From contig DAOUUT010000056.1 in NCBI GenBank assembly GCA_030668025.1, positions 1-15,368 of the forward strand: a DNA stretch of 15,368 nucleotides. Reading direction: 5' to 3'. Both the position numbers and the translations under genes were made by a program. Position 1 is the stretch's first letter. Every line of letters starts with the position of its first letter. Positions 1-15,009 of the stretch are shown in pieces. Source of the stretch: Promethearchaeota archaeon. GTDB taxonomy: Archaea; Asgardarchaeota; Lokiarchaeia; Sigynarchaeales; SOKP01. The notes below the pieces were generated by a model. That model did no database searches. It saw nothing but the letters and a program-made list of their open reading frames with translations, and was not told where the DNA came from.

Positions 1-357
1 CTTCTCTATATATTCAGTTTTTCTTTCTTCAGCTTTAGTTTTCGGAAATCTATCAGCAGATTCATAAATTAAATATAAATTGTATATAAATTCTCTGTTA
101 TAACCGCTATTTAGAACCGTTATTGTTTCTCTAAAATTTTTAGCGATTGTCTCAGGATCAGTATTTTTTGTATTATTATTTATGTTTGATTTAACGTTAT
201 ATAAAGAGATACTTTCAGAACCCGGTTTAATCCCTATTACGTCGATGTCTACCCAGCTACTTGTGTCTTTCTTGAAAAAATCGTAATCGATCTGAGTTAT
301 TTCTCGATTTACTATTCTTGCCCATAAACTAACATATCCCTCTCTTACATCTTTCAT
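1..357 (-). CDS. Partial hypothetical protein, possible PD-(D/E)XK nuclease-like core
   Basis: The reading frame is open from an ATG at 357 to the window edge (119 codons seen), so the C-terminus is missing. I do not recognise the family with certainty. Residues 36-58 read as a strand with two acidic residues (D37, D39, in VDIDVIGI), a turn, and a second strand ending in YNVKSN (K56). This spacing resembles the core of PD-(D/E)XK nucleases, where an Asp strand is followed by a (D/E)xK strand; here the E position is N54, so activity is doubtful or the match is accidental. The rest is charged and probably helical. It is transcribed away from the HEPN unit across a 300-base gap. The frame is very likely coding; the nuclease idea is an inference. 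Confidence 0.6.
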   Translation of the reverse strand, partial: MKDVREGYVSLWARIVNREITQIDYDFFKKDTSSWVDIDVIGIKPGSESISLYNVKSNINNNTKNTDPETIAKNFRETITVLNSGYNREFIYNLYLIYESADRFPKTKAEERKTEYIEK

Positions 358-486
358 AGTAATCGCTTGAATTTTTTTAATAACAAAATAAAACTCATAT
401 TATTTAACTTATTGTATAACTCCACAAGAATAAAAAAAAGAACAAAGATCCTCTAATTTAAGCCGAAATATATAGGTTAAGAGATA

Positions 487-510
487 ATTAAACTCTTGTT
501 AGAGTTTAAT
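487..510. repeat. Perfect 10-bp inverted repeat with 4-base loop
   Basis: The arms ATTAAACTCT and AGAGTTTAAT flank the loop TGTT. It starts about 12 bases after a TATA-like element, so it could sit across a transcription start as an operator or form a hairpin at the 5' end of an RNA. A run of T does not follow, so it does not look like a terminator. Confidence 0.7.
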
Positions 511-523
511 AGAGGGCTTAATC

Positions 524-548
524 AGGCGTACGAAGCGTTTTATCGCCT
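524..548. repeat. GC-rich small inverted repeat (AGGCG/CGCCT)
   Basis: The 5-bp arms AGGCG (524-528) and CGCCT (544-548) enclose a nested ACG/CGT pairing (530-532 with 536-538). It is one of few GC-rich spots in a very AT-rich gap. Together with the neighbouring 10-bp hairpin it may be part of a structured RNA leader. Confidence 0.35.
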
Positions 549-602
549 TGAAATCCAATGTTAGCTCAAATTATATGGAATCCTTAAAAATATTTTGCTC
601 TT

Positions 603-615
603 AAACTATATAAAG
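603..615 (+). promoter_or_regulatory. TATA box for the small ORF/HEPN unit
   Basis: AAACTATATAAAG is a good archaeal TATA box. With the usual spacing of about 25 bases, transcription would begin near 636, giving a leader of about 30 bases before the ATG at 665. This supports transcription of the small ORF with the HEPN gene. Confidence 0.5.
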
Positions 616-664
616 ATTTTCTTCTGATGTAATTGAGTCCGATAATGATCATAATTGATAAAAT

Positions 665-799
665 ATGAAATTTACGAAAAGGAATAAATTTCAATGGATT
701 AAGATTTGGTTGAGAGACAACATCATCAAACAAACGAGCGGGAGAAAATTCTTTTTTGATTCCGTATTAATTTATAAATTCGGGGGATCTACTAGATAG
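665..799 (+). CDS. Small 44-residue ORF directly upstream of the HEPN gene
   Basis: This frame starts at ATG 665 and ends at TAG 797-799, one base before the ATG of the HEPN gene. The product is basic and aromatic (many K, R, F, W and I) with no domain I recognise. The support is positional: a TATA box lies at the expected distance upstream and the stop nearly touches the next start, as in a translationally coupled pair. Small proteins encoded just before a HEPN RNase are often antitoxins, but nothing in the sequence proves that here. It could also be a chance frame or the tail of a decayed gene. Confidence 0.35.
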   Translation: MKFTKRNKFQWIKIWLRDNIIKQTSGRKFFFDSVLIYKFGGSTR

Positions 800-800
800 T

Positions 801-1601
801 ATGAAAAATTTAGTACAAGGATCTTTACATCTTCTAGATGATTATTTTGAAGATAAAGAAATAACGGAACAAGAGTTAGAACAAGGGAAATATTTTGTCA
901 GAATCATATTCAACAAAGATATTAATTACGAAATAAATGAATCGAACGAATTATACGGACAATTGATTAAATTGGTTGCATTGGCAAACAGATATCCGTT
1001 ATGCTCCGATTCATTAGAATACATAATGCAAGAATTCCAACAACATATCAATTCAAATTGGCGAGCTTCTTATAATCTTATCTTCAATGTGGGATTAAAT
1101 CCATCTATGTCTAGAAATGGCGTAGTAGAGGAGGATATAATCTCACAAATTAAATACCGAAGACGACTTATTGAATTATCAGAAGACGAACGCAGAGAGT
1201 GTAACAATCTGCAAGTGCTAATTATGGAAATTAACTGCATAACAAGATTATACAACGAAAAAATACGATTAAGTAATCTCATAAGTATCCAAGATTTCTA
1301 TAATTTTCTTGAAAAATACGACAGATTATTTAACGATCTGTTTGGATTTCATCCCACACATAGTCGACATAATTTAAGTATGAACCCGTTTAGACAGTAT
1401 AGGAATGCAATTGCACATTCAAATTACATTATACAAAATAATCGAATCAGCTTAGTAGATTGGGAATGGCAAAATAGACCTTATAGAGTTCGTGGTGTAT
1501 TATCATTATCCTTAGACGATGTATCATCGGCTGTAATGTTAATGGCATGTATTATTTCTCAAATTGTTTGTCTATATCAATTAATGTATCAATCACAATA
1601 G
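801..1601 (+). CDS. HEPN-like domain protein with RNAIAH (Rx4H) motif
   Basis: This 266-residue, largely helical protein has no signal peptide or clear membrane anchor. The informative segment is R201-N-A-I-A-H206, which fits the Rx4-6H catalytic motif of HEPN-superfamily RNases, including the common polar residue after the Arg. It is followed by a strongly hydrophobic helix at 241-262, as expected for the last HEPN helix. HEPN proteins usually act as RNA-cleaving toxins or effectors in toxin-antitoxin, abortive-infection and defence systems. Residues 1-190 are helical and not recognised; they may be a sensor or inhibitory region. A G-rich stretch (782-787) could serve as ribosome-binding site. 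It overlies a possible antitoxin ORF and is followed by a TnpB relic, a mobile-element context. HEPN assignment is moderate: one motif plus helix pattern. Confidence 0.6.
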   Translation: MKNLVQGSLHLLDDYFEDKEITEQELEQGKYFVRIIFNKDINYEINESNELYGQLIKLVALANRYPLCSDSLEYIMQEFQQHINSNWRASYNLIFNVGLNPSMSRNGVVEEDIISQIKYRRRLIELSEDERRECNNLQVLIMEINCITRLYNEKIRLSNLISIQDFYNFLEKYDRLFNDLFGFHPTHSRHNLSMNPFRQYRNAIAHSNYIIQNNRISLVDWEWQNRPYRVRGVLSLSLDDVSSAVMLMACIISQIVCLYQLMYQSQ

Positions 1602-1612
1602 TTTTAATTACT

Positions 1613-1750
1613 ATGGGAAGGTTTGTCGAATTCTTGACCTATAAAGCGGAAAAGATAGGTAAGAGATTAATAAGAATTGACGAATCTTACACGAGTTCCG
1701 TGTGTGAAAAGTGTGGTCGTAAAACAAGTAACCATCCATATCAATTTTAG
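1613..1750 (+). pseudogene. tnpB: Relic of TnpB (IS200/IS605-type OrfB), zinc-finger region only
   Basis: The 45-codon frame encodes a YKAEKIGKRLIRIDESYTS stretch followed by VCEKCGRK. This matches the C-terminal signature of TnpB: a YKAE..G strand, the D..YTS element and the first CxxC of the zinc finger. It stops before the second CxxC and the last RuvC Asp, and no upstream part remains because the HEPN gene occupies that space. It is therefore a fragment without function, left by an IS200/IS605-type element or by recombination. An open frame extends back into the HEPN gene, but that part shows no TnpB similarity. Confidence 0.75.
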
Positions 1751-1873
1751 TATGAAAAGCGGATAATTTTATGTTTTCAATTTCTATTTCTTTTACTTTT
1801 CCTTCCATATCTACGACCAACTTCCGATAGAATTTAATATAATTAGTCAGTAGATAAACACAAAAATTTTCCC

Positions 1874-1882
1874 TTTATATAG
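1874..1882 (+). promoter_or_regulatory. TATA box for the 67-residue ORF
   Basis: TTTATATAG preceded by CCC resembles an archaeal TATA box with BRE. A start site near 1904 would give a leader of about 27 bases that includes an AGAGG ribosome-binding site at 1918-1922. Confidence 0.35.
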
Positions 1883-1930
1883 ATCTATTATATATTCCTA
1901 TTAACTGAATAAAAAAAAGAGGTTAAATAG

Positions 1931-2134
1931 ATGGAATATTTGGGAAAAACTGGAGTATTGGTTATTGAGCCGTTAGACTTCGATTTAAAGCTTCAAAAAG
2001 TGTTTTATCCTAATTTTGGGTTCGTTTTTACCAGCGAATCAGAATTTTTTAGAAATAGTGCCGCGAAATTTCTGATTTTGCAAAATTTTATAACTGTTCT
2101 TACTATATCGTTGCAAAATACAAGCTCCACCTAA
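1931..2134 (+). CDS. Small hypothetical protein, 67 residues
   Basis: I do not recognise this product. The N-terminal 25 residues (MEYLGKTGVLVIEPLDFDLK) look like normal protein, whereas the rest is rich in F, S and N and may be degenerate. In favour of a gene are an ATG start, an AGAGG site 8 bases before it and a TATA box at a suitable distance. Against it are its length, the unusual composition and the lack of any motif. It lies between a transposase relic and the 3' end of the phosphoesterase-histone gene. Confidence 0.3.
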   Translation: MEYLGKTGVLVIEPLDFDLKLQKVFYPNFGFVFTSESEFFRNSAAKFLILQNFITVLTISLQNTSST

Positions 2135-2150
2135 AAATAAAAGAAAATAA
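2132..2150 (-). terminator. Oligo-T type terminator for the phosphoesterase-histone gene
   Basis: On the minus strand, two T-rich runs separated by single bases occur 45-65 bases after the stop codon of the upstream gene. Archaeal transcription commonly ends at such runs. The assignment rests on position and composition only. Confidence 0.35.
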
Positions 2151-2194
2151 TCTTTTAATTGGAGATGAGTGGGACGATTCTGGTTGTAGTAGTG

Positions 2195-3673
2195 CTAAAT
2201 TAAATTTATGGCTATCTTCATATCGTTTTGTGTTATTTTTTTTCTACCTGAATGTTTAGTTATATCTAAAGCGCAAATAGTTAATTCCTTAGCGTACGCT
2301 TCCAAATAATCCATTAATTTATCTACTGCTGCCTTGCTAATAATCTCAGCTCCGGAGCTCTTCATTAGCGCTCTTAGAGGGTTCCAAGCGAAAGCAGTTT
2401 TATGCTTGCTCCGTTTATTGCCAAGTTCTAATGTCGTATTACTCAAATCCATAAATTTAAGTAAATCCCTGTATTTATTTATAGACATTTTCTTATCATC
2501 TCTAAGTTTAGCTAAGTGCTTATCATAATTAATTTCGATTCGTTTAAAGAAATATTGTGGATTAAAATCTATCTTCTTCTCGATTAGAGCATTTAATATT
2601 TGAGCTTCTTTTCTGGCTTGTTCTCCTTTTCCCTTTTCTAAGTTATATAATACTTTTTTATATTCATTTTTAAATTTCTCGTAAGTTTCTTTAGAACATC
2701 CTAGAATTTCCTCTCTCCATTCATTATCTATAGTTACTGAATGCGAGATATCTTTATCGTAAGAAATATGGATATTTAGAATTCTTACTCTTGTGATAGT
2801 AGGCATTTCTTCATCCGGGTAAAGCTCGACCATTGAGAATTGATTACTATCATCTCTATCCATCTTCCGAGCAAAAAGTGGACCCGCTCCTATTGTTAGA
2901 GTCTCGTCATATTTATGACTTGAGGAAGCATGCGAATGACCGTGTAATATAAGAGTGAACCCATAGCCATATAATTCATTTATGACTTTAAACGATTTTT
3001 CTAAATTTTCATTCTCCACATTAATCGATGTTGGTGGATGGTGCATGAGTGCAATCTTATAATTATACTGTTGATAGGCATCTTCTTCATCCAAAATTGC
3101 TAGTAATTGATTATAATTGATATCGGTATTTTGTTTAGAATTATTATTATAGACAGACTTTTTAAAATCATTGGGATTGTTTCTATCGATATCATAACAA
3201 TTGTATAGACAACTATTAAGCCCTAGAATACGCGTATCAAAATTATCCAAGGTTCTAATAAAATGAGGATTGTTAAGATAATTTTCATCAAACACGCGCT
3301 CGTTAGTTAATTCCAACTCTTTTTTAAAGTTTAAGAAGGAATTAAATCGTTTAGGATGAATTTTTCCAACTTCTCTTATCCATTCCAAATCGTGATTTCC
3401 TGGAATGATAATGAGTTGATCTTTGTCAAAATCTCGATAAAGTACTTCTTTAACAAAAGATTTTGCGTGTGAGAAATCAGTCTCACTTGCTTCTGAAGTA
3501 AAATCACCAGTGAATATAACAAGGTTAATATCTGAAAACTTTATATTTTTATCTCTTAATTTATTCTTGATTTCGTCAAAGATTTTGGCAAAATAGGTAT
3601 TACTCCCCGTGTGCCGATTGAGTCTGCCCAAATGAAAATCACTTATGTGTAGTAATAACAACTTATTTGTCAT
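2195..3673 (-). CDS. Calcineurin-like metallophosphoesterase fused to a C-terminal histone fold
   Basis: This is a single uninterrupted 492-residue frame. The N-terminal part carries the full metallophosphoesterase signature: D12-F-H14, G56-D57, G92-N-H-D95, H211-H212 and G245-H-S-H248. It therefore probably binds two metal ions and hydrolyses phosphomonoesters, phosphodiesters or nucleic acid. Residues about 320-427 form a charged helical linker. Residues 429-492 are an archaeal histone fold: W-N-P-L-R-A-L-M-K, then a long central helix, then the loop SGRKKIT and the final helix. A gapless hand alignment with the free histone encoded at 9199-9411 gives 29 identities in 64 positions. The ATG at 3673 is preceded by a TATA-like TTTTTAAA about 35 bases upstream, with no Shine-Dalgarno site. 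The fusion could target the enzyme to DNA or allow dimerisation with histones (inference). No signal peptide is present. Confidence 0.9.
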   Translation of the reverse strand: MTNKLLLLHISDFHLGRLNRHTGSNTYFAKIFDEIKNKLRDKNIKFSDINLVIFTGDFTSEASETDFSHAKSFVKEVLYRDFDKDQLIIIPGNHDLEWIREVGKIHPKRFNSFLNFKKELELTNERVFDENYLNNPHFIRTLDNFDTRILGLNSCLYNCYDIDRNNPNDFKKSVYNNNSKQNTDINYNQLLAILDEEDAYQQYNYKIALMHHPPTSINVENENLEKSFKVINELYGYGFTLILHGHSHASSSHKYDETLTIGAGPLFARKMDRDDSNQFSMVELYPDEEMPTITRVRILNIHISYDKDISHSVTIDNEWREEILGCSKETYEKFKNEYKKVLYNLEKGKGEQARKEAQILNALIEKKIDFNPQYFFKRIEINYDKHLAKLRDDKKMSINKYRDLLKFMDLSNTTLELGNKRSKHKTAFAWNPLRALMKSSGAEIISKAAVDKLMDYLEAYAKELTICALDITKHSGRKKITQNDMKIAINLI

Positions 3674-3987
3674 GGTATTTCAATCTGAATAATTTTTTTG
3701 GGTTTAAAAAGTTTGTAATTTCTTCATCAAAATCTAATTATTATTATCTAATGCTTATTACATTTTTCTCTCTATTTTTTTTTAATCCATTATTTATTCT
3801 TTTAATTTTCAAATTTGCCTAAATTTTTCCTTTTTATTCTTTCGACAAATATAGGTAGTAATGACTGCAAAACTCAGTGATGACAATAAGAGCATAAAAG
3901 ACTCACACAATAGAATAACGAAATATTTATTGATTTTTTTCGGTAATTTTTATGAGCGTGTTGATTGTATTTTGATATGAAACTTTC
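3674..3987. other. Intergenic stretch, no supported gene
   Basis: It is very T-rich at 3720-3840. A TATA-like element for the leftward phosphoesterase-histone gene lies at 3703-3710. A 39-codon plus-strand frame (3861-3980) has only a weak AGGT in front and no recognisable product, so I do not call it. Confidence 0.5.
3703..3710 (-). promoter_or_regulatory. TATA box of the phosphoesterase-histone gene
   Basis: The minus strand reads TTTTTAAA centred about 33 bases before the ATG. A start near 3680 would leave a leader of about seven bases, consistent with a nearly leaderless transcript and with the absence of a ribosome-binding site. Confidence 0.45.
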
Positions 3988-4107
3988 TTAAATCTGAACT
4001 ATTTTTGAATTCAACAGAAAATACAAATCTTTAAAATCTTTCATGATTTCGGGACTTTTGTTATTAATAACTCGATCGGCTTTAAGTTGAATTATCCTTC
4101 TATTTGC
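3988..4107 (-). pseudogene. Out-of-frame continuation of the nucleotidyltransferase gene
   Basis: Directly after the short nucleotidyltransferase frame, the -1 frame stays open for 39 codons (ANRRIIQLKADRV and on to FKDLYFLLNS) and ends at TAA 3988-3990. Its composition is protein-like, with an alternating helix pattern. The junction is an A-AAA-AAG heptamer at 4107-4113 in the correct phase for -1 slippage. Joining the frames would give about 110 residues, close to minimal nucleotidyltransferases. The simplest reading is a decayed gene or a homopolymer sequencing error. Programmed frameshifting is possible but unproven. Confidence 0.4.
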
Positions 4108-4319
4108 TTTTTTTCGTATCTTACTTCGGTCCAATCTTGCTTTGGAATGTGCTCTAAAGAATCAACTATCGCGACCAAATCTACGTCGTTCTTGATCCAG
4201 TTAGGGGGAAGGTTCCGTTCGAAATAGCTTCCAATCCCGAACACGCTGAGGATGTGCCCCGAAAATCGCGATTTGAGGTCTTCAATAATTTCTTCGATTA
4301 AGGGATCTTTTTTGCTCAA
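4092..4319 (-). CDS. Short or truncated nucleotidyltransferase-fold protein
   Basis: This 75-residue product has F27-G-I-G-S31 followed by N44-D-V-D-L48. That is the GS...DxD pattern of the DNA polymerase beta-like nucleotidyltransferase superfamily, in which the two Asp residues bind metal. The insert between GS and DxD (YFERNLPPNWIKN) is longer than in the smallest MNT antitoxins. The family normally continues with a third catalytic strand that is missing here, because the frame stops at TAA 4092-4094 soon after DxD. Only a TTG start is available and there is no clear ribosome-binding site. It probably represents a truncated or frameshifted gene. Members act in toxin-antitoxin pairs with HEPN proteins or as nucleotide- or antibiotic-modifying enzymes. 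A HEPN-like gene lies 2.5 kb away, but with an unrelated gene between them. Confidence 0.6.
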   Translation of the reverse strand: MSKKDPLIEEIIEDLKSRFSGHILSVFGIGSYFERNLPPNWIKNDVDLVAIVDSLEHIPKQDWTEVRYEKKQIEG

Positions 4320-4521
4320 GGCGAGAATATTAGTTTTAATTGCTTTTTTAACTTTAACAATTCTATCTAAATTAAAAACAAATTTTACAAATAGTGCTAA
4401 GACTTATTAATTAACGTATTAGAGATTTTAAGCAAATGTTTAAAATTTTATGTTTAAGTGTTTATAATTTTTAAAAGTAAAATAAAAATAGGAGAAGAAA
4501 TTAATTTATTTATTATAATTA

Positions 4522-4530
4522 TTTAAATTA
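4522..4530 (+). promoter_or_regulatory. TATA box of the proteasome subunit gene
   Basis: TTTAAATTA centred at 4526 predicts a start near 4552. That puts the TTG at 4553 on the start site itself and favours translation from the ATG at 4565 with a leader of about 13 bases. Confidence 0.45.
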
Positions 4531-4564
4531 TCGTCTAATTATTGTAGAAAATTTGTTGAAGAGA

Positions 4565-5206
4565 ATGATGGAAAATAAAAATAATACGCTCAACTTGGAC
4601 GAGGATACTTTAAACCGAATTGTTAAATCAAGTACTACTATTGTAGGGATAATTGTTAAAGATGCCGTTGTAGTTGGAACAGAATCTCAAGCCACCGCGG
4701 GATACACAGTAGCCACTAAAACTGCACAGAAGCTCTTTCAGATTAACGATTACGCTTGTGCTACAATCTCGGGTGGAGTGGCAGATTGCCAATACGTTGT
4801 TAACCAACTCAAAGCACTTTCCAGGTTGAAGCAAGTAGAAGATGACAAAGTGCCTGACCCGAAATATATCGGAAGTTTAACGAGAAACATTCTATTTAGC
4901 GGAAGGTCTTACTTCGTAAGTATGATGATAATAGGTGGGTATTCCCTAAAGAATAAAAAAGGTATTCTTTATGGTGTTGATTTACTAGGAACTTTATACG
5001 ATGAAGATAAATACATTTCGTTTGGTTCAGGGTCACCATTCTCTTTAGGCGTTCTAGAGGCAGACTGGAAGCGAAATATGACTATAACTGCTGGAATTGA
5101 GCTGGTAAAAACCGCGATATCAAGTTCTCGAGAACGAGATGCTGCATCAGGATTCGAGCTTCAAATCTGTACCATCGATAAGAAAGGTTTCAAACAAATT
5201 CAATAA
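4565..5206 (+). CDS. Proteasome beta-type subunit, divergent active site
   Basis: The product belongs to the Ntn-hydrolase proteasome family (about 213 residues from ATG 4565; an in-frame TTG at 4553 adds four). A propeptide of about 23 residues leads to SSTTIVG, in which the first Thr aligns with catalytic Thr1 of GTTTVG. Lys33 (in TAQKLFQI), the GSGS loop and the late RDAASG motif (Asp166, Ser169) are conserved. Two key positions differ: the residue before Thr1 is Ser instead of Gly, and catalytic Asp17 is Glu (in GTESQATAG, where ATDxRAT is usual). It may be a slow, differently processed or non-catalytic ring subunit of the 20S proteasome, which degrades unfolded or tagged proteins in the cytoplasm. 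No alpha subunit or ATPase is in the window. The family call is firm; altered activity is an inference. Confidence 0.88.
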   Translation: MMENKNNTLNLDEDTLNRIVKSSTTIVGIIVKDAVVVGTESQATAGYTVATKTAQKLFQINDYACATISGGVADCQYVVNQLKALSRLKQVEDDKVPDPKYIGSLTRNILFSGRSYFVSMMIIGGYSLKNKKGILYGVDLLGTLYDEDKYISFGSGSPFSLGVLEADWKRNMTITAGIELVKTAISSSRERDAASGFELQICTIDKKGFKQIQ

Positions 5207-5391
5207 ATTTTCTGTTAGTAGATTACCAGTTTATTTAACTACCAATTATCAGAAATATTATTCTTTATTTTTTTAAAAAGATTTAAATTAAATTTAGATA
5301 TAAATTTTGTAAGACTTAAAATTAAAAACAAACTAGAGAATTTTTCTGGAAAATTCAAGGAGTTGAATCCAGAATCGAGATTATTATATAT

Positions 5392-5649
5392 TTGGGAGAC
5401 TTATTGGCTAAAAAAATCAATATAAGTCCACCTGCTGCCCGGGGATTAATAAAACTATCGATAAAGGACGAGTTAGGTCCTTTTAAACCATATAATCAAA
5501 TTGATTTCGAAGATTTAAAAAAAACTTTTAAAAATTCTCTAAAAAAAAGATTAATAAAATTAGACGTTCAAGAATGTGAATCTATTCTTGATTATATCTT
5601 AGATGAACTAACTTTAAACCAGTCGTTAATAACAATTGGAAGTGTATAA
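5392..5649 (+). CDS. Small conserved-looking helical protein, function unknown
   Basis: I do not recognise a named family. The 85-residue product is helical, with a tidy KINISPPAARGLIKLSIKDE segment that looks like a short helix-turn-helix or helical bundle and an acidic-basic C-terminal half. Only a TTG start (5392) is available in frame, yet the frame is open back to 5326 and a good GGAG lies at 5359-5362. One T inserted near 5391 would join this frame to an upstream TTG and add a natural-looking N-terminus (NPESRLLYI), so the 5' end may contain a frameshift or sequencing error. The stop is three bases before the ATG of the next membrane protein, so the two are probably co-translated. Confidence 0.65.
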   Translation: MGDLLAKKINISPPAARGLIKLSIKDELGPFKPYNQIDFEDLKKTFKNSLKKRLIKLDVQECESILDYILDELTLNQSLITIGSV

Positions 5650-5652
5650 AGG

Positions 5653-6438
5653 ATGGACCTTATTATTTTTTTCTGGATTTTCGCTATATTATTGATATTA
5701 TTTATTGTTTCACTCTTAGTTGTAGGTATTTTTTTCTTAATTAAAGGTAATCAAAATAAAATGAACAACCTAATAGTTATAGGAATAGGTTTTATTGCAA
5801 TAGTTGTAGGTTTTATTGGTAGTTTTATCTTTAATCTGGGGCCTATTTTTCAAGAAATTTTTGTTTTTATTGGATTCGTTTTATTAGTAGTTTTTACAAA
5901 TATGACATTTTACAAAGGCAGAAAGTCAAAAGCAATAGTCGTATTAATTGTTACGGTAATTTTAGGAACCATACAGATTATATTAATGATATTCCAAGCT
6001 TATTTTTCAATTTACACCTATTATTTCAGAGTTACTTTAGATGTACCCTATACTTTTTTAGTCTTTAATTGGCTGGCGTGGTCATCCTATTCCGCGTACC
6101 AAAAAATAAAGAATAAAAACATTCAACCATGGATAAAAGTACGATACAAATTGGTTGCTTTCGTTTCATTTATTCTCAGCTTTAATAACATACCCGAATA
6201 TTTTCAACCTGCAGGCACTACATGGGGCGATCCTGATAATATAATAAGCTTAGCTGTTTTTGGTACAACTGCTGTAATATCAGTAATTTTTGCGATTGGG
6301 TTTAGTTTGGCATGGTTGATGCCAAATCGGCTTAAAAAGTTTTTTAATAGGAATTATCAACTTTTGGATGAAAAAGAGTATACTGAAGATGAATTGATGA
6401 ATTTAATTAGAGAACAATTAGCGAATAAGAACAATTAA
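5653..6438 (+). CDS. Seven-helix integral membrane protein, unknown function
   Basis: The 261-residue product has about seven hydrophobic helices at residues 4-30, 38-60, 66-83, 92-117, 131-149, 165-182 and 198-222. It ends in a charged cytoplasmic tail of about 35 residues (NRNYQLLDEKEYTEDELMN). The layout resembles sensory seven-helix modules, but there is no kinase or other output domain and no retinal-binding Lys motif that I can see. It starts three bases after the preceding small gene, and its start codon directly abuts AAGG, so translation probably depends on coupling. A paired role with the small helical protein is likely, but its nature is unknown. Confidence 0.75.
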   Translation: MDLIIFFWIFAILLILFIVSLLVVGIFFLIKGNQNKMNNLIVIGIGFIAIVVGFIGSFIFNLGPIFQEIFVFIGFVLLVVFTNMTFYKGRKSKAIVVLIVTVILGTIQIILMIFQAYFSIYTYYFRVTLDVPYTFLVFNWLAWSSYSAYQKIKNKNIQPWIKVRYKLVAFVSFILSFNNIPEYFQPAGTTWGDPDNIISLAVFGTTAVISVIFAIGFSLAWLMPNRLKKFFNRNYQLLDEKEYTEDELMNLIREQLANKNN

Positions 6439-6463
6439 TTCTCTTAATTTTTATATTTATAAA

Positions 6464-6958
6464 TTAATCCTTAACAAAGTTTATCTCTATTTGAAGCAAT
6501 TTATTTTTTATATAAATAAAACCATTAATTTCCTTGCTTCTAGAATCCATTATTATCCATATTAAGTGCTTGAAATTTTTAATACCACAGTTATGATAAG
6601 ATTTCATACATTTTTTATCAACGCCACTTGGATTTGCTCCAGCGGGGTGAGAATGAAAAATTGCTATTAAATCTAAATTGTTATTTTTTGAAATAGTAGT
6701 TGCAAGTTTTATCAACATGTCATCGTTGTCTAACAAGAATGCAACAGGACTTTTATTGCTAGAGTCAATACATTGAAAATCCTTACTATAATATTTATAT
6801 TTAAAATCACCATTATTATTAATTTCTTGAATTTCACCGAAAATTAAACCGCACGCTTCATTCGGGGCCTCATTTTCAATACATTGTTCTAATTCATTAA
6901 TTATGATATCGTCAAGAAAAAAAATAATGTCTTTTTCAAATCTCATTTTATACGTCAT
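6464..6958 (-). CDS. JAMM/MPN-domain metalloprotease (JAB, Rpn11-like fold)
   Basis: The 164-residue protein has the catalytic elements of the JAMM family: E34 (in NEACGLIFGE), H102-S-H104-P and S111-G-V-D114. These bind a zinc ion and cleave isopeptide or peptide bonds of ubiquitin-like modifiers, or act on sulfur-carrier proteins. The spacing between the second His and Ser is six residues, whereas seven is usual. The N-terminal 30 residues form a strand and a helix, and there is no extra domain, so it resembles single-domain archaeal JAMM proteins. It is the second gene of a minus-strand operon, seven bases after the winged-helix gene, and lies 1.3 kb from a proteasome beta-type gene. No ubiquitin-like, E1 or E2 gene is in the window, so the substrate is unknown. 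Confidence 0.85.
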   Translation of the reverse strand: MTYKMRFEKDIIFFLDDIIINELEQCIENEAPNEACGLIFGEIQEINNNGDFKYKYYSKDFQCIDSSNKSPVAFLLDNDDMLIKLATTISKNNNLDLIAIFHSHPAGANPSGVDKKCMKSYHNCGIKNFKHLIWIIMDSRSKEINGFIYIKNKLLQIEINFVKD

Positions 6959-6965
6959 ACTCGAA

Positions 6966-7643
6966 TTAAAATAGCGTTAAAGCCGCGTTTAAAGCGGCTA
7001 ACCGCGATATTTGGGAGTTTTCACCCAAACCTATTATTATCACATCTTCTTTCTCAAATAATACGTTAGCTTTTTCAATTTTAGATGTAAAATACTTCAG
7101 AGTTTTTTGATTGATTTTCTTTTGTTCTTCGCTACTATTATTTACAAATTTAGAGGGAAAGATAATATTTATTCCGTTATACACAAGACAAGTAGCCCCA
7201 GAACCGTTAACCTTTATTGCCGCGTCTCGTTGCTCGATTCCGTTCTTAATTTTCTTAGTAGCGTTCTTAACTAAACAAAAATAAGGATTAACATTTTCAG
7301 GTTCAATAATAATATCTTTTAAAAAAGTAAGGTCCGCTTTTTCTAACAAAGGAATTTTTTTTTTTATTTTAGCAAAAAATTTATGCCCTTTCTTAGTTAA
7401 CACGTGCCCCTTCCTCTCTCCTTCGCTTGGAACTACAATAAACTCACTCACATCTTTTAATTTTTTAACCAAAGATTTAGCTGTTCCAGATCCAATTTGC
7501 AATTCATCTTTAAGGCGATATCTTCCAATACCTCCTGGGTTTTCTCCAAATATAAATAAAGATAATATAACATGAACATAATCGAAAGTAGGTCGAATAG
7601 TTGGACTTTCAAATAATGGCTTCAATTCACTTAATTCTTTCAT
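6966..7643 (-). CDS. Winged-helix protein with archaeal C-terminal domain (DUF4443-like)
   Basis: Residues 20-98 form a winged helix-turn-helix: a helix, IGRYRLKDEL, the recognition helix GSGTAKSLVKKLKD, then a beta wing ending in GHVLTKKGHKFF. The C-terminal part (110-225) has the segment QRDAAIKVNGSGATCLVYNG and ends in a IIIGLG strand with a helix rich in Ala and Leu. From memory this resembles the archaeal DUF4443 group, a name I hold with low certainty. It is probably a transcription regulator that senses a small molecule or binds a partner through the C-terminal domain. It is the first gene of a two-gene operon with the JAMM protein, and is divergent from the zinc-ribbon gene with only about 120 bases between the two starts. 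Confidence 0.7.
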   Translation of the reverse strand: MKELSELKPLFESPTIRPTFDYVHVILSLFIFGENPGGIGRYRLKDELQIGSGTAKSLVKKLKDVSEFIVVPSEGERKGHVLTKKGHKFFAKIKKKIPLLEKADLTFLKDIIIEPENVNPYFCLVKNATKKIKNGIEQRDAAIKVNGSGATCLVYNGINIIFPSKFVNNSSEEQKKINQKTLKYFTSKIEKANVLFEKEDVIIIGLGENSQISRLAALNAALTLF

Positions 7644-7722
7644 GTTCTTGATATTTAAAGAAATCGTTTGTAAAAAAAATATTACATCAAATAAAATTAT
7701 AAGTTAAAATTGAATTATTTCC

Positions 7723-7731
7723 TTTATATAA
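7723..7731 (+). promoter_or_regulatory. TATA box deciding the start of the zinc-ribbon protein
   Basis: TTTATATAA preceded by CC is a strong archaeal TATA box. It predicts a start near 7753, which lies after the in-frame TTG at 7710 but 14 bases before the ATG at 7767, so the ATG is the more likely start. Confidence 0.55.
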
Positions 7732-7766
7732 TCGATTACTTTATCGAGAAGTCGGCGAAGTTTTTA

Positions 7767-8765
7767 ATGGCAAAAAAAAATAGAGATCAAGATCGAGAAG
7801 ATATGCACGAACTAATATTATTTAGAGAACCAACGTCTCAAAAAATAAAGAAACTCGAATCTGTTTCTCTTGAATATATTAATCAAGAAGATAAAATTAA
7901 TTTAGTATGCAAATCAGAACCTTTTGGAGGAAATTATCTTTATTCCTTGGTAATATCAAATAGGAGCGTTGATCCAATTACAGAAATTAAGATTAGAGTA
8001 AGAATTCCAAGAGCCTTAAAGCTTTGTAGAAGTACACCTCCAACTATAACCATAGAAAAAATTAATTTTGAAGAAGATGAAGAAGAAACACAAGTAAAAA
8101 TAGAATTTGAAGTATTAAAAGGAAAAGTTCAAAAACAAATTAATTTATTTCTCTGCCCGATATCCTTAGAAGAAAAAGTTGAGATTAAATCATCAGTTAC
8201 ATTCGTAAATAATGCAGATTTTGTTAGGGCAATTGACACGGATGCTATTACTATTCAACTCGATCCATTTAGCATTGAAAGGAAAATATTACCAAGTGCT
8301 GAAGTTAAAAAATTCCTACAAATTCCCAAGATGAAAAAAGCGATTAAAAGTATTGGGGTTGGTATAGAAAAATTCTTCGACGAAAACTATTATTTTGATT
8401 ATATTACTAAAATCATCCAAGACCAAAATTTCCAATTAATTATTAAAGATAATGATAAGAAAATTGTGTGGTTTTTCGGAACAGAATTAGTGTCGGGAAA
8501 CGATGTCTTGGTAATTGGGCAAATTATCTCGGGTAAAATAGAATGGTTGGCAGCATCGCAAAACCATCCTTTACTCGTCTCCATCTTAACAAAATTTGTA
8601 AACACTTTTATAGAGGATATGATGATTTTAAACCAAATAGATTCTGAAGATCAAATTTATCATTTAGAATGTAAATATTGCGGCAATATTTTATCTAGCT
8701 TTACTGGAAAAGGTAAATCTATCGAATGTAATAAATGCAACTACGAACAAGTTATTTGGAACTAG
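7767..8765 (+). CDS. Beta-rich protein with C-terminal zinc ribbon, unknown function
   Basis: The product is 332 residues from ATG 7767 (a TTG at 7710 would add 19). I do not recognise a named family. Residues about 40-175 alternate short strands in the manner of an immunoglobulin-like sandwich (NYLYSLVISN, EIKIRVRIP, VKIEFEV). Residues about 195-295 are mixed alpha-beta and contain FQLIIKDNDKKIVWFFG. The end holds C302-K-Y-C305 and C321-N-K-C324, a zinc ribbon (CxxC-x15-CxxC). A beta sandwich followed by an alpha-beta platform recalls the appendage layout of vesicle-coat adaptors, but this is only a shape argument. No membrane segment or signal peptide is seen. It is divergent from the JAMM operon and could be co-regulated with it. 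Confidence 0.7.
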   Translation: MAKKNRDQDREDMHELILFREPTSQKIKKLESVSLEYINQEDKINLVCKSEPFGGNYLYSLVISNRSVDPITEIKIRVRIPRALKLCRSTPPTITIEKINFEEDEEETQVKIEFEVLKGKVQKQINLFLCPISLEEKVEIKSSVTFVNNADFVRAIDTDAITIQLDPFSIERKILPSAEVKKFLQIPKMKKAIKSIGVGIEKFFDENYYFDYITKIIQDQNFQLIIKDNDKKIVWFFGTELVSGNDVLVIGQIISGKIEWLAASQNHPLLVSILTKFVNTFIEDMMILNQIDSEDQIYHLECKYCGNILSSFTGKGKSIECNKCNYEQVIWN

Positions 8766-9123
8766 AAAGATTAATTACTCCTTCGTTAATGTATTCTTTC
8801 GATGACTTGCTTTAAAAATAGAATAAAATTTTTTATGTTTCATTTGATATTAAATTTCACTTTTCAGCATTTCACAATTTGATTAAATTTTTATTTTCGT
8901 CTAGTTTTATTACCATTTGTTTCATTGTGTTAGAATTATAGCCCTTATTATTCATTTTAGCATTAAATATTCACAGATTTTCGAAATCAGTGCAAGATAT
9001 TTATATTGTACGAAATGATTCAATTAGTATGGTTTGAATTTTGTCGTGAAATTTTTTTCGTTTTTTTCCTTAGAAAATCAAGTATCAATCAAAATCTTTA
9101 AATACATAAAAGAACATTCTTTA

Positions 9124-9147
9124 TTTGATTAAGTAAATTTAATCAAA
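9124..9147. promoter_or_regulatory. Perfect 9-bp palindrome upstream of the histone promoter
   Basis: The arms TTTGATTAA and TTAATCAAA flank six bases (GTAAAT). It ends only a few bases before the TATA-like run at 9151-9166. That is where an archaeal activator or repressor would meet the transcription-factor-B site, so it is a good operator candidate. Confidence 0.5.
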
Positions 9148-9186
9148 AAAATTAAATTTAAAAATATTAACTAAAATATATAAAGT

Positions 9187-9191
9187 GGAGG
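9187..9191 (+). promoter_or_regulatory. Strong ribosome-binding site of the histone gene
   Basis: GGAGG lies seven bases before the ATG. The leader GGAGGAATTAT recurs almost identically before the PH-domain gene at 15010, whereas most other genes here lack such a site, suggesting high translation of the histone. Confidence 0.75.
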
Positions 9192-9198
9192 AATTATC

Positions 9199-9411
9199 AT
9201 GTCTGAATATATTAGTTGGAGTCCTATTAGGCGCCTTATGAAACATAACGGTGCTGTTATCGTCGCAAGAGATGCTGTAAACGAACTCGTTGATTGGATG
9301 GGTTCATCAGCAGAGAAGATAACCAAAAGTGCGTTAACCTTAACGAAACATTCAAAACGTAAGAAAATAACTCGGGACGATATCTTATTAGCTATTAAAT
9401 ACTTCAAATAA
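9199..9411 (+). CDS. Archaeal histone (HMf-type)
   Basis: At 70 residues this is the normal length for an archaeal histone with almost no tail. It contains the three-helix histone fold: W-S-P-I-R-R-L-M-K with the first helix, a central helix from about residue 25 to 47, the loop TKHSKRKKIT and the last helix DDILLAIKYF. The RKKIT loop and the paired basic residues contact DNA. It should dimerise, wrap or bridge DNA and compact the chromosome. It has its own strong ribosome-binding site, a palindrome before its TATA region and a long T-run after it, so it is a single-gene transcript. It is closely similar to the C-terminal domain of the phosphoesterase encoded at 2195-3673, so the two might form mixed dimers (inference). 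Confidence 0.93.
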   Translation: MSEYISWSPIRRLMKHNGAVIVARDAVNELVDWMGSSAEKITKSALTLTKHSKRKKITRDDILLAIKYFK

Positions 9412-9432
9412 ATAGCAAATATAGTTTAAAAC

Positions 9433-9456
9433 TTATTTCTTTTTTTTTTCTTTTTA
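9433..9456 (+). terminator. Oligo-T terminator after the histone gene
   Basis: A run of ten T, one C and five T begins about 30 bases after the histone stop. Such runs end transcription by archaeal RNA polymerase. It lies just beyond the stop of the opposing minus-strand gene. Confidence 0.55.
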
Positions 9457-9461
9457 TTAAA

Positions 9462-9801
9462 TTAATCAGGAAAATTTCTATTAACTTTTATTAGAACATG
9501 TTTCAAATACTGTTTCATATAGAACCTTTCGCTGTTACAATAGTCTAACTTTTCGTTATTTGATAATTTTTTACAGTTTTTCAAGAGATTATGGATATCT
9601 TCAACTATAATAAAATACTCTTTTTTAGTGACATCACATTTTTGATTTATTAGATCATTAACTAAGTTTGAGTTAAAATCGTTGTCTCCGATATGAGTTA
9701 TGCCACTGTTTATTGAAGGGCTAATTGTGTTTGGTTTAACTGTTTCGATGATATTTACGACTTTTTTACTATTGCTAAAACCTTTTGAAATGAATACTCA
9801 T
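9462..9801 (-). pseudogene. Hypothetical gene on the minus strand, apparent frameshift near its start
   Basis: From 9797 down to the TAA at 9462-9464 the minus strand is open for 111 codons, encoding a hydrophilic, protein-like product (KKEYFIIVEDIHNLLKNCKK and KQYLKHVLIKVNRNF are typical stretches). A 111-codon open run is unlikely by chance at this base composition. No ATG, GTG or TTG lies at its start, but an ATG at 9801 is only one base out of frame: removing one A from the AAAA run near 9785 would give MSIHFKGFSNSKK. A TATA-like TTTTTTAAATA about 45 bases upstream fits a promoter. It may be a recent pseudogene, an assembly or sequencing error, or a gene using an ATT start. I do not recognise the product; it is mostly helical and follows the Gfo/Idh/MocA gene in the same direction. 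Confidence 0.5.
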
Positions 9802-9876
9802 CTCGGAGAATTTTCGATTTAATGAAAGAAATCACAAAACAATATTTAAAAAAGAAGATAGTAGCAATTTATTGTT

Positions 9877-9900
9877 AAATAATAAAATAAATAAAAAAGT
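9877..9900 (-). terminator. T-rich terminator after the Gfo/Idh/MocA gene
   Basis: Read on the minus strand, T6 and further T-rich runs start within a few bases after the stop of the oxidoreductase gene, a common archaeal termination signal. A TATA element for the following small gene lies close behind. Confidence 0.4.
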
Positions 9901-9903
9901 CGA

Positions 9904-11031
9904 TTACTCTAAGCAATAATTGTTGTTGATGTATTTTTCTAATCCTTCGAGAATAGTTCTAGTTCCCTTAGAATTATGAACTTCCATCAAATCATCAATC
10001 GTTACTAATTTCTCTGTTTTTGCTGATAAATACGATAATAACACAGTTTTTATTGCTTCTCTTGCTTGCTCTGGAGAAAAATCTGGTTTTAGATCGTTAA
10101 TTATACAATCTGTAAAATGAGAGTCCTCAATACCCATAGATATTTCGTAATATTTTGGGAAAGGTCCATGCTTAATTTCTGGTTCATACCATTTTCCTTT
10201 ATTATTACCCATACTTTCGTGATTGGAGAATATTTTAACGGGTTTTTTCCACTCGTGATTTTCGATAATTGTACCTTTTGTTCCATATATTTCTAAACTA
10301 TTTGTTGGTGGTGATATAACGGTAAAGCTAACTATAGTTTCAACAATAGTCCCACTTAAATACCTCAATAAAACCATGGCGTTATCCTCGGCTTTTTCGC
10401 TTAAATTGGTACACTGCTTTGTTAACCAACAATAAGCAGATTCAACTTTATCATTTAATATCCAATTAATTGTCGCAAATTTATGGGCACCCATATCCAT
10501 TAAAGCCCCGCCTCCTGCCATAATGGGGTGCCCCTTCCAATGCCCACTTTTCATAAGTCCAGGTATTTCATTAACTCCTTCGTAAGATCGCACCAAAAAA
10601 ACTTTCCCCACTAACCCCGATTGCACTGCTTCCATTATATATTTATGAGCGGGCAAAAATCGATGATTTTCGGCAATCATAAATTTAACACCCGCTTTCT
10701 CAGTTGCCTTAATCATATCGTCACAACCTTCGAGTGTAGTAGCCATCGGTTTTTCGCAGAGTACGTGCTTATCCGCTTCTGCTGCCGCAATGACATACCT
10801 TTCATGGAGGAAATGTGGAACCATTATCAGTACAGCGTCAATATCGCTTTTTAGTAAATCATCAATAGTGCTACAATAAGTCATCTTATTGGTTTTAGCG
10901 CATCTTCTCGCAGTTTTCTCGTTAATGTCAAAAACTGCTTTAAATTTGATTTTTGGATTATTTTTACATCCAAATTTATGAAACCTCCAGACAGTGCCAG
11001 ATCCAATAATCCCGAATTTAACAAAATCCAT
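9904..11031 (-). CDS. Gfo/Idh/MocA family oxidoreductase
   Basis: The 375-residue protein has an N-terminal Rossmann fold with G7-I-I-G-S-G for NAD(P) binding. It also has the conserved E93-K-P95 that supplies the catalytic Lys and the D179-M-G-A-H183 motif of the C-terminal substrate domain. Such enzymes oxidise or reduce sugars, inositols, amino sugars or related hydroxy compounds in the cytoplasm. The length is typical. The specific substrate cannot be read from sequence. Its transcript is probably leaderless, because the TATA box at 11053-11064 places the start site next to the ATG. It is divergent from the M24/SDR pair, and the shared 163-base gap suggests joint control of one catabolic cluster. 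Confidence 0.9.
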   Translation of the reverse strand: MDFVKFGIIGSGTVWRFHKFGCKNNPKIKFKAVFDINEKTARRCAKTNKMTYCSTIDDLLKSDIDAVLIMVPHFLHERYVIAAAEADKHVLCEKPMATTLEGCDDMIKATEKAGVKFMIAENHRFLPAHKYIMEAVQSGLVGKVFLVRSYEGVNEIPGLMKSGHWKGHPIMAGGGALMDMGAHKFATINWILNDKVESAYCWLTKQCTNLSEKAEDNAMVLLRYLSGTIVETIVSFTVISPPTNSLEIYGTKGTIIENHEWKKPVKIFSNHESMGNNKGKWYEPEIKHGPFPKYYEISMGIEDSHFTDCIINDLKPDFSPEQAREAIKTVLLSYLSAKTEKLVTIDDLMEVHNSKGTRTILEGLEKYINNNYCLE

Positions 11032-11052
11032 AATTATTCTTTTCTATAAGGA

Positions 11053-11064
11053 TATTTATAAATA
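11053..11064 (-). promoter_or_regulatory. Palindromic TATA box of the oxidoreductase gene
   Basis: TATTTATAAATA is itself palindromic and centred about 27 bases from the ATG of the leftward gene, giving an almost leaderless transcript. The matching rightward element (TTATATTTTA, 11154-11163) serves the M24 gene. Confidence 0.5.
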
Positions 11065-11153
11065 TGTTATTAATCTTGTAGAATGTTTCCAAAATCGATA
11101 ATAAAGATTTAGCTTTACCTTAGATAAATTTTATTATAAGTTTTTAACTCAGA

Positions 11154-11163
11154 TTATATTTTA
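11154..11163 (+). promoter_or_regulatory. TATA box of the M24 metallopeptidase-like gene
   Basis: TTATATTTTA is centred about 36 bases before the ATG at 11195, giving a leader of roughly 11 bases. A weak GTGAT Shine-Dalgarno-like match lies in that leader. Confidence 0.4.
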
Positions 11164-11194
11164 ATCAATTAATATTTTTAAGATGTGATATGAG

Positions 11195-12328
11195 ATGGTC
11201 GACCCAATTGGATATAGTAAGAAAAGAGCAAGAAAATTTTTAGAAAAATATGATATTGATCTTTTAATAGCCTCAACTCCAGTAAATGTATTTTATACTA
11301 CAGGTTTACCAGTAACCCATGTTGCTCCAAATCCCATTTTATATGTACTATCCAATCAATACCCAAACTTATCTATGATACATAGAGATGGAGAAGAATA
11401 TGCAATTGTATGGTCTTTATATGATAGTATAGAAGATTTTTCTTGGATCGAACCAAGTAAAGTATTTCGTGCTGGATCCTTAGAAACTACTCTAAAAATC
11501 TTGTTAAAAAAAGTTGAAGAATGGGATTTAGGCAATAAGACAATAGGGCTTGAATCTTATATGCCTCGATACCAGTCTGAAGCGTTGCAAAAGAAGTTCC
11601 CTGATGCGAAATTTATTGATGCTGATAATGCATTTATTGACATGCGACTTATTAAAACTGAAGAAGAAGTAAAGCGAATTCGGAAATCAACTGAAGTAGC
11701 TGAAAAGGCAATACAAGCATGCATAGATGCTGTAAAATTGGGTGTATTGGATACAGAATTGTTACAAATAGCGAGAAGAACGATTGTAGATGAGGGAGCA
11801 TGGGGATGGGATCATTTAACAATGAATATTGGTCCTTCTGATCCAGAAGCACCAGGATTAGGAATCCCAGTAACTCAAAATGACATTGTAAGATTTGATT
11901 TTGGAGCTGTATGGGAAGGTTACATCTCTGATGTGAGTAGAGGTGTCGTTATTGGTGAAATCCCAAAGAAAGCCAATGAAGCTATGGATTATATGATACA
12001 AGTTCAAGAATATTGTGTTGATAATATTAAGCCAGGAGTTAATGCTATGGAATTTAGGGAAGAGGCTCGATCTTACTTAAAAAACATTACAAAAAGAGGC
12101 TTTTATCTTATTACAGCACATAGTATTGGATTAGAATGTGAAGAAGCTCATCTCTTTGGCCCTGCAGGTGCAATGGACATTCCTTTTGAAGAAAATATGG
12201 TCATGGATATTGAAGTTTGGTTAAATGTGCGAGGACAAGGTTTAGTTGGTGTAGAAGATTGTTATAGAATTACTAGTTCTGGATGTGAAAGATTATCACA
12301 TCTCGATAAAAAGATAGTTGTTAAGTGA
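11195..12328 (+). CDS. M24 family metallopeptidase-like protein (Xaa-Pro dipeptidase/creatinase fold)
   Basis: The 377-residue protein has a creatinase-type N-terminal domain (1-150) and the pita-bread catalytic domain (about 155-375). All five metal ligands are in place: D235 (RFDFG), D246 (ISDVSRG), H309 (TAHSIGLECEEAH), E340 (MDIEVWLN) and E354 (VGVEDCYRI). Because true creatinases lack metal ligands, it is more likely a dinuclear-metal aminopeptidase P or dipeptidase-like hydrolase, probably cytoplasmic. The actual substrate may still be a C-N compound rather than a peptide, given its neighbours. The stop codon overlaps the ribosome-binding site of the SDR gene, so the two form an operon. 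Confidence 0.88.
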   Translation: MVDPIGYSKKRARKFLEKYDIDLLIASTPVNVFYTTGLPVTHVAPNPILYVLSNQYPNLSMIHRDGEEYAIVWSLYDSIEDFSWIEPSKVFRAGSLETTLKILLKKVEEWDLGNKTIGLESYMPRYQSEALQKKFPDAKFIDADNAFIDMRLIKTEEEVKRIRKSTEVAEKAIQACIDAVKLGVLDTELLQIARRTIVDEGAWGWDHLTMNIGPSDPEAPGLGIPVTQNDIVRFDFGAVWEGYISDVSRGVVIGEIPKKANEAMDYMIQVQEYCVDNIKPGVNAMEFREEARSYLKNITKRGFYLITAHSIGLECEEAHLFGPAGAMDIPFEENMVMDIEVWLNVRGQGLVGVEDCYRITSSGCERLSHLDKKIVVK

Positions 12329-12341
12329 GGGCGATGATAAT

Positions 12342-13118
12342 TTGAGAGTAAAAGATAAAATTGTGGTTTTAACTGGGGCAGCCTCAGGAATTGGTCGTGC
12401 TACGGCTATATTATTTGCTAAAGAAGGGGCAATTCAAGTACTTTCTGATATTGACGAAAGGGGATTGAAAGAAACATACGAAGTTTTAGGAAGTGCTAAA
12501 GAAAGAACGACAATCATAAAATTGGATGTGAGAAATTCCGACGAAGTTAGGAGTATGATTGATTCTACAATAGATAAGTATGGAAAAATTGATGTTTTAA
12601 TAGTTAATGCAGGTGTTGTGAGAGTAGGACCAGTTGAGACTTTTCCAGATGACGATTATGACTTGTTAATTGATGTAAACCTTAAAGGTACACACCACAC
12701 ATGTAAATTTGCAGTTCCTTATTTTAAAAAACAAAGATTTGGGACAATAATTACTTTAGCGTCTGTAGCAGCGCACATTGGTCAAGTAGCACATGCAAAT
12801 TACTGTTCTACAAAAGCGGGCGTGTTAGGATACACAAGAGCTTTAGCATTAGATTTAGCACCCTATAACATTCGAGTTAACAGCGTGAGTCCGGGTGCGA
12901 CCGACACTCCAATGCTACAGAGCGACGTAGCAAAACAAGCTAGAGATAGAGGTGTTGACTACGATGTTGTTAAGAAAGAATTCGAAGAAGAAGGTGTTAT
13001 AGGGCGCTGGGCAAAAGCTGAAGAAATTGCCACGGGGATTCTCTTTTTAGCAACAGATGATTCCTCTTATATGACCGGAGCAGATTTGAGATTAGATGGT
13101 GGTTGGACTACAAAATAA
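12342..13118 (+). CDS. Short-chain dehydrogenase/reductase (SDR, classical)
   Basis: From TTG 12342 the protein has 258 residues, the classical SDR length. A TTG at 12318 would add eight, but the GTGAGGG site at 12325-12331 lies ten bases before 12342 and favours the later start. Motifs in order: T11-G-A-A-S-G-I-G18 cofactor loop, D36 suggesting NAD rather than NADP, N89-A-G91, N113, catalytic S141, Y154 and K158, then S-P-G-A and the final LDGGW. It should interconvert a secondary alcohol and a ketone. The site overlaps the end of the M24 gene, implying translational coupling. With a BKACE enzyme nearby, oxidation of a beta-hydroxy acid to a beta-keto acid is an attractive guess. Confidence 0.92.
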   Translation: MRVKDKIVVLTGAASGIGRATAILFAKEGAIQVLSDIDERGLKETYEVLGSAKERTTIIKLDVRNSDEVRSMIDSTIDKYGKIDVLIVNAGVVRVGPVETFPDDDYDLLIDVNLKGTHHTCKFAVPYFKKQRFGTIITLASVAAHIGQVAHANYCSTKAGVLGYTRALALDLAPYNIRVNSVSPGATDTPMLQSDVAKQARDRGVDYDVVKKEFEEEGVIGRWAKAEEIATGILFLATDDSSYMTGADLRLDGGWTTK

Positions 13119-13129
13119 ATATTTTGAAT

Positions 13130-13849: not shown

Positions 13850-13891
13850 ATAAGTAAGCGTTTTATTTAAATTAAATATATTTCTTTTAAT

Positions 13892-14689: not shown

Positions 14690-14863
14690 TACATTCTTCC
14701 AATATAGCTTATGATATTAACTTTATATTTATTATTTAATAGTAAAAATGTTAAAAATTTGATTTTTTCTTCAAGTTATTTTAAAGAAGAATTGTAAAGT
14801 TTATTTAACATATTACAGATTAGGAGAATGAACTACTTTACTATATATTCTTGATCAAAATAG

Positions 14864-14891
14864 AAATATTTATATATATATGTAAATATTT
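14864..14891. repeat. Perfect 9-bp inverted repeat with 10-base spacer
   Basis: AAATATTTA and TAAATATTT flank TATATATATG. In such AT-rich DNA part of this may be chance, but its position between two divergent genes makes it a possible operator. Confidence 0.35.
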
Positions 14892-14995
14892 ATTACATAA
14901 TAAAGAAATATTTTAAGATTTCTTTTTTAGAAGCTTAAAATGCTAGAAAATTGAATATAATTATAATTTACATATAATAAAACTAATAAAAAAAT

Positions 14996-15000
14996 GGAGG
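14996..15000 (+). promoter_or_regulatory. Strong ribosome-binding site of the PH-domain gene
   Basis: GGAGG lies nine bases before the ATG and fixes the start. The following AATTATAAT repeats the leader of the histone gene. Confidence 0.7.
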
Positions 15001-15009
15001 AATTATAAT

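Follow-up and report, generated by a model that had tools for sequence, protein, structure and literature searches.

Histone folds which are joined to a further domain have already been described for Asgard archaea. As far as the accessible text of the respective reports goes, the Rab GTPase histones of Lokiarchaeota combine an N-terminal signalling or enzyme domain with a C-terminal histone fold (Schwab et al. 2024, PMC11390915), and in Hodarchaeales an Asgard histone fold is joined to another domain, namely Roadblock/LC7 (PMC10919886). For bacterial conflict systems, the accessible parts of two further papers describe EADs as small, non-catalytic interaction modules placed on effector enzymes (PMC7159879, PMC8195603). 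Here, a gene is reported which encodes a calcineurin-like metallophosphoesterase, a helical region, a predicted tether and a histone fold in one chain. It was identified within a stretch of 15,368 nucleotides from a Promethearchaeota archaeon (contig DAOUUT010000056.1, positions 1 to 15,368; hereafter the window), where it occupies positions 2195..3673. These coordinates, as given in an earlier note made from the letters alone, are correct, and the strand, which had not been stated, is the minus strand. The view expressed there that archaeal histones are normally single-domain proteins needs qualifying for Asgard archaea, from which Rab-GTPase and Roadblock fusions had already been described. 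The reading favoured here, to which a probability of about 0.5 is assigned, is that of an accessory, possibly defensive, phosphodiesterase of an Asgard archaeon (Lokiarchaeota-type) which carries a near-copy of the core histone in its adaptor slot and is tethered to chromatin by handshake pairing.

Architecture of the fusion and its family

The open reading frame (ORF) starts with the ATG at 3673, ends with the stop codon at 2195-2197 and encodes 492 amino acids; counted from stop to stop, the frame comprises 494 codons and so exceeds the ATG ORF by two. On the minus strand, the metallophosphoesterase domain comprises residues 7-249 (2927..3655) and is recognised by PF00149 with an E-value of 3.6e-15 (57.3 bits, cut-off 21.5), whereby fold matches extend over residues 1-328. 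The motifs DFH (12-14), GD (56-57), GNHD (92-95), HH (211-212) and GHSH (245-248) were all found as previously claimed, and the residues D12, H14, D57, N93, H94, D95, H211, H212, H246 and H248 are invariant in all seven rows of the enzyme alignment. The pattern D-x-H, GD, GNH[DE], H and GHxH, which we take to be the metal motifs of calcineurin-like metallophosphoesterases, is thus completely present. A helical region follows (residues 328-405, 2459..2692), which is poorly conserved as judged by pairwise identity and was delimited from the structure model, and then a predicted flexible tether (residues 406-429, 2387..2458), for which the predicted local distance difference test (pLDDT) falls below 50 at residues 413-429. 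The chain is closed by the histone fold (residues 427-492, 2198..2395) with its three helices at about 430-439, 447-474 and 482-491 and with the loop-2 segment RKKIT at 477-481 (2231..2245), likewise as claimed. Profile and model agree on this fold: PF00808 matches residues 434-489 with an E-value of 3.7e-8 (34.0 bits, cut-off 21.4), and the domain model reaches a pLDDT of 93.7. The NCBIfam model archaea_histone (NF043032) scores 46.9 bits, just below its cut-off of 50. In both structure models the third helix counts 10 residues and hence is of full length.

About 5.8 billion proteins were searched, with scoring confined to the 7994 candidates that had most words in common with the query, and 26 matches were obtained, nine of them close (E-value of 3.5e-70 or better, query included) and the next one at 3.9e-12. 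Both Pfam domains are present in seven of the nine (P0001-P0007, with P0001 being the protein of 2195-3673); the six other full fusions are 40-82% identical to P0001 and locate to different contigs. In P0009 the histone is about 10 residues shorter, and in P0008 none is recognisable; at E-values up to 1e-3, NF043032 matches seven of the nine members. A profile search revealed no further fusion among the 120 matches listed of 170, judged by their listed Pfam domains. A further, 84% identical copy (L001, JAUWZT010000179.1), which resides on a contig of a Lokiarchaeota metagenome-assembled genome (MAG), is ended by the contig edge before the histone. The idea that the fusion is an assembly chimera, which the earlier note had named as possible refutation, or a chance run-on of two genes found no supporting point and carries practically no weight, as the join recurs on different contigs in seven of the nine close relatives, even where identity falls to about 40%. 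The two-domain architecture is thereby confirmed, and the fusion is real.

The histone domain and its likely partner

The fused domain was compared with 24 distinct free core histones, which a filter on the start string had selected out of 48 and which share a mean pairwise identity of 92.6%. The nearest fetched free core histone (L024) is identical at 56 of 66 positions and several others at 55, and P0001 keeps 44 of the 50 invariant, 30 of the 31 hydrophobic and 10 of the 11 basic positions of the reference set. Chance likeness is excluded, because 2000 shuffles of the fused domain gave at best 13/66 identities with a core histone. Judged by its sequence, the domain is a near-copy of the conserved Asgard core histone, a type which was found in each of the 29 best-matching genomes with a fetched locus. 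The free histone of the window (70 amino acids; 9199..9411, plus strand), which serves for comparison only, belongs to another, more distant type. It lies 5.5 kb away and was the sole match when every frame of at least 45 amino acids in the window was scanned with a histone profile. Its domain differs from one in the MAG of L001 at a single position of 66, so that window and MAG very likely stem from closely related organisms. The ungapped count of 29 identities in 64 positions reported earlier between the fused and this free histone is exact, and over 66 positions 29 are identical as well. Hence 56/66 stands against 29/66, and the conserved core histone, rather than the free histone of the window, is the likely pairing partner.

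Averaged over the seven full fusions, the histone is better conserved than any other part, with a mean pairwise identity (21 pairs) of 66.8% as compared to 55.1% for the enzyme and 28.3% for the helical region; for the linker, 15 pairs gave 18.5%. Five of the seven histones are 80-85% identical to a core histone, P0006 keeps 46 of the 50 invariant positions, and 9 to 11 of the 11 basic positions are kept in P0001-P0004, P0006 and P0007. The R-K-K of loop 2 is intact in P0001-P0004, P0006 and P0009 and altered in P0005 and P0007. At sequence level, the 44 of 50 invariant positions kept by P0001 lend support to the earlier suggestion that the protein may dock on DNA or form mixed dimers with chromatin histones. 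Alternatively, the histone fold might be a dimerisation device only, which by self-pairing would create a dimeric phosphoesterase, chromatin docking being lost. This alternative, which is regarded as rather unlikely, would agree with the accessible text of a report according to which histone-fold proteins dimerise obligatorily, an insect CENP-T being the one exception (PMC12678787). It would also agree with P0005, in which 27 of 31 hydrophobic positions are retained together with 31 of 50 invariant and only 6 of 11 basic ones, a pattern to be expected from selection on pairing rather than on DNA contact. However, a dimer device need not remain 80-85% identical to the core histone, as five of the seven fusions are, and the six members with largely complete basic positions also keep H474 and D484, which, by HMfB roles transferred through the alignment, we take to be dimer-dimer contact positions.

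Within close pairs the histone is not the best-conserved part. For the three pairs of P0001-P0003, the difference between histone and enzyme is not significant (p 0.45-0.56), and P0006 and P0007 share 94% over residues 1-312 (288 columns), 62% over residues 313-426 and 79% over the histone (Fisher p 0.0005 for enzyme versus histone). The C-terminal half may thus be diversifying or recombining in this one lineage, as a single pair weakly suggests.

The enzyme, its surroundings and a possible role in defence

The top NCBIfam match of P0001 is NF053862, the model of the anti-phage phosphoesterase DS9_1 (73 bits). At family level it matches all nine members, NF053861 (DS8) one of nine and the cyclic-AMP phosphodiesterase model NF008359 five of nine. 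The sequence profiles of the family touch SbcD/Mre11 as well, with TIGR00619 (SbcD) scoring 23.1 bits on P0001, under its cut-off of 77.65. From this, a chromatin-tethered nuclease of the Mre11/SbcD kind could be derived, which would act in repair or in the cutting of foreign DNA and use the histone as DNA grip. Such a nuclease is deemed unlikely: in the fold comparison over residues 1-328, phosphodiesterases and small-substrate acid phosphatases rank above the Mre11/SbcD nucleases. No SbcC/Rad50 ATPase was recognised in the Pfam-scanned ORFs of the window or of L001; it may lie elsewhere. As fold comparison and sequence profiles point in different ways, the choice between nuclease and protein phosphatase, both of which the earlier note had proposed, is undecided.

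The closeness of the fold to nucleotide and small-diester enzymes, together with the matches of NF008359, would also suit a housekeeping nucleotide phosphodiesterase or a protein phosphatase on chromatin, tuning signalling or histone modification. The distribution, which is not that of a housekeeping gene, renders this quite improbable. An enzyme-only profile matched 13 of 227 genomes of the phylum (Asgard archaea) at E-values up to 1e-8, and the subfamily was found in only one of them, the MAG of L001 itself (579 bits); the other 12 reach at most 79 bits, eight of them in ORFs of more than 492 codons. Moreover, only the gene and some 55 bases ahead of it (3674..3728, minus strand) are common to window and L001, at 91% DNA identity over 1095 bases; the likeness fades more than about 60 bases before the ATG. 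Their upstream flanks are unrelated, and the downstream side of L001 lies beyond its contig. Besides a weak HEPN match (0.008), L001 carries an integrase-like gene, which reaches 24.4 bits in Pfam (cut-off 27.1) and 7.2e-6 in PHROGs. In the window, the C-terminal fragment of a TnpB/Cas12f-like protein (1547-1750, plus strand; Pfam TNB domain, E-value 1.5e-11) lies downstream of the gene, as the trace of a mobile element. The coding part common to both copies is under moderate purifying selection (nonsynonymous/synonymous divergence, dN/dS, of 0.075/0.174 by NG86 and 0.081/0.140 by YN00). Flanks, mobile-element traces and selection fit an accessory gene without proving defence.

In a sample of 20 wider relatives, chosen partly for listed partners, fusions of the enzyme to NACHT, TIR, TPR-S, EAD8 or CHAT are frequent. 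Taken together with the differing upstream flanks, the DS9_1-type likeness makes the defence effector in an accessory region, as the earlier note had it, plausible. According to the favoured reading, the N-terminal enzyme would be a di-metal phosphodiesterase akin to the DS-8/DS-9 group, with wider relatives which often carry changing sensor or adaptor modules, the slot presumably being filled here by the Asgard core-histone near-copy on its flexible tether. Because histone folds pair in a handshake, the fused histone is expected to self-pair, by which the enzyme would be dimerised, or to pair with the free core histone and so to enter the histone-DNA fibre; to judge by entries 5t5k and 9qv5, archaeal histones of this kind assemble into fibres that wrap DNA. 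Pairing with the free core histone would hold the catalytic domain beside DNA. At chromatin, a nucleotide or nucleic acid would then be the substrate of the enzyme, and the most likely occasion would be foreign-DNA invasion.

Several findings weigh against this reading. The NF053862 score lies far under the cut-off of 420, which was exceeded in none of the 227 genomes, and at E-values up to 1e-3 the model also matches ordinary phosphoesterases, in 177 of the 227 genomes and eight of 14 controls. For the gene itself, PADLOC gave weak matches only (4.9e-5); of four other scanned ORFs, three had weak matches or none at all, and the fourth, a JAB peptidase about 2.8 kb off, matched generic JAB models (1.9e-9). 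Four of the 20 wider relatives carry no further domain and three only sub-threshold ones (two pYEATS, one Hint); among the 120 listed profile matches, many consist of phosphoesterase domains alone and count about 300 amino acids. Regarding the histone, the fused domains (66.8%) are less constrained than the 24 free ones (92.6%), and a free histone of the 56/66 type is not among the two free histones found in the nearest relative's genome, a short-contig assembly. P0005 lacks H474, K478 and K479 (histone pI 5.4), P0009, which keeps 28 of the 50 invariant positions, has a deletion within the fold, and in P0008 the fold is missing. Because of these losses DNA binding is not kept family-wide, and given those in the P0005 loop and the damage in P0009, some members may have lost chromatin docking.

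A more tentative and less probable reading takes the histone itself as the immune module: an Asgard antiviral enzyme would carry a near-copy of its lineage's own core histone, either as integrated decoy, by which the fused histone would report viral attack on host chromatin, or as ticket to the fibre, whereby a latent phosphodiesterase would reside in the host histone fibre and become active at sites disturbed by foreign DNA. In one close pair, P0006 and P0007, the faster divergence of the C-terminal half as compared to the enzyme would fit a sensor under pressure.

Further observations concern the neighbourhood and the phylum. An ORF of 266 amino acids (801-1601, plus strand) has no Pfam or PHROGs match and a weak PADLOC one only (RTasHEPN, 0.035); its stretch YRNAIAHS resembles what we take to be the HEPN R-x4-6-H motif. 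A 75-amino-acid ORF (4092-4319, minus strand) by eye resembles the start of a nucleotidyltransferase (GS...DVDL) and has no match in Pfam, PADLOC or PHROGs. Within 4553-7643, a proteasome subunit (PF00227, E-value 6.9e-43) is encoded together with a DUF4443 protein and a JAB-domain peptidase (PF14464), possibly a proteasome-related neighbourhood, and a 351-amino-acid ORF (7710-8765, plus strand) shows weak adaptin C-terminal-like and zinc-ribbon matches, both under cut-off. Other phosphoesterases of the wider group occur in the same phylum at L040, L041, L042 and L043, with L040 and L043 lying in long ORFs with repeat-like sequence and the L041 gene being the top DS9_1 match of the phylum search (E-value 3.0e-37, 128 bits).

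Relation to described systems

With the anti-phage metallophosphatases DS-8 and DS-9 (DefensePredictor; NF053862, NF053861), the protein has a homologous metallophosphoesterase domain in common. In DS-8, however, NACHT is part of the same protein, whereas here no NACHT match was obtained at E-values up to 0.1 and a histone fold is found instead; DS-9 possesses a second gene with a HAD phosphatase, of which no match was seen among the scanned ORFs of the window. Phosphodiesterases of the Rv0805, GpdQ and SMPDL3A type carry no histone and are 14-21% identical to the enzyme described here, and YydB (9a6c_B, an integrative model), which has YydD as partner, is 18% identical. The EADs resemble the fused histone in being small modules attached to an effector enzyme, but the accessible parts of those papers do not name a histone as EAD, and no second histone copy is encoded in an adjacent gene here.

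As compared to the Rab GTPase histones, the N-terminus is PF00149 and not a Rab GTPase. According to the accessible text on them, they are of the face-to-face, alpha3-truncated kind, in which the third helix counts 3-4 residues (PMC11390915) and not 10 as here. In the Hodarchaeales fusions, as far as their report is accessible, the partner is the non-enzymatic Roadblock, whereas here it is a phosphoesterase. The Asgard and archaeal nucleosomal histones (HHoB, 9qv5; HMfB-type chromatin, 5t5k) are free, small, single-domain proteins; here the three-helix fold forms the tail of a 492-amino-acid enzyme. Among the prokaryotes known so far, Asgard archaea are considered to stand closest to eukaryotes. 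An enzyme built onto a nucleosomal-type histone in such an archaeon would be a direct prokaryotic example of catalysis that a histone has recruited to chromatin; the defence reading, if true, would connect archaeal chromatin with immunity. In the titles and abstracts of the literature searched, the phosphoesterase-histone combination was not seen, and the main texts of the histone surveys make no mention of phosphoesterase, metallophos-, phosphatase, calcineurin or phosphodiesterase. Asgard histone fusions and anti-phage phosphoesterases have each been published already, and the novelty of the protein described here would lie in the combination of the two.
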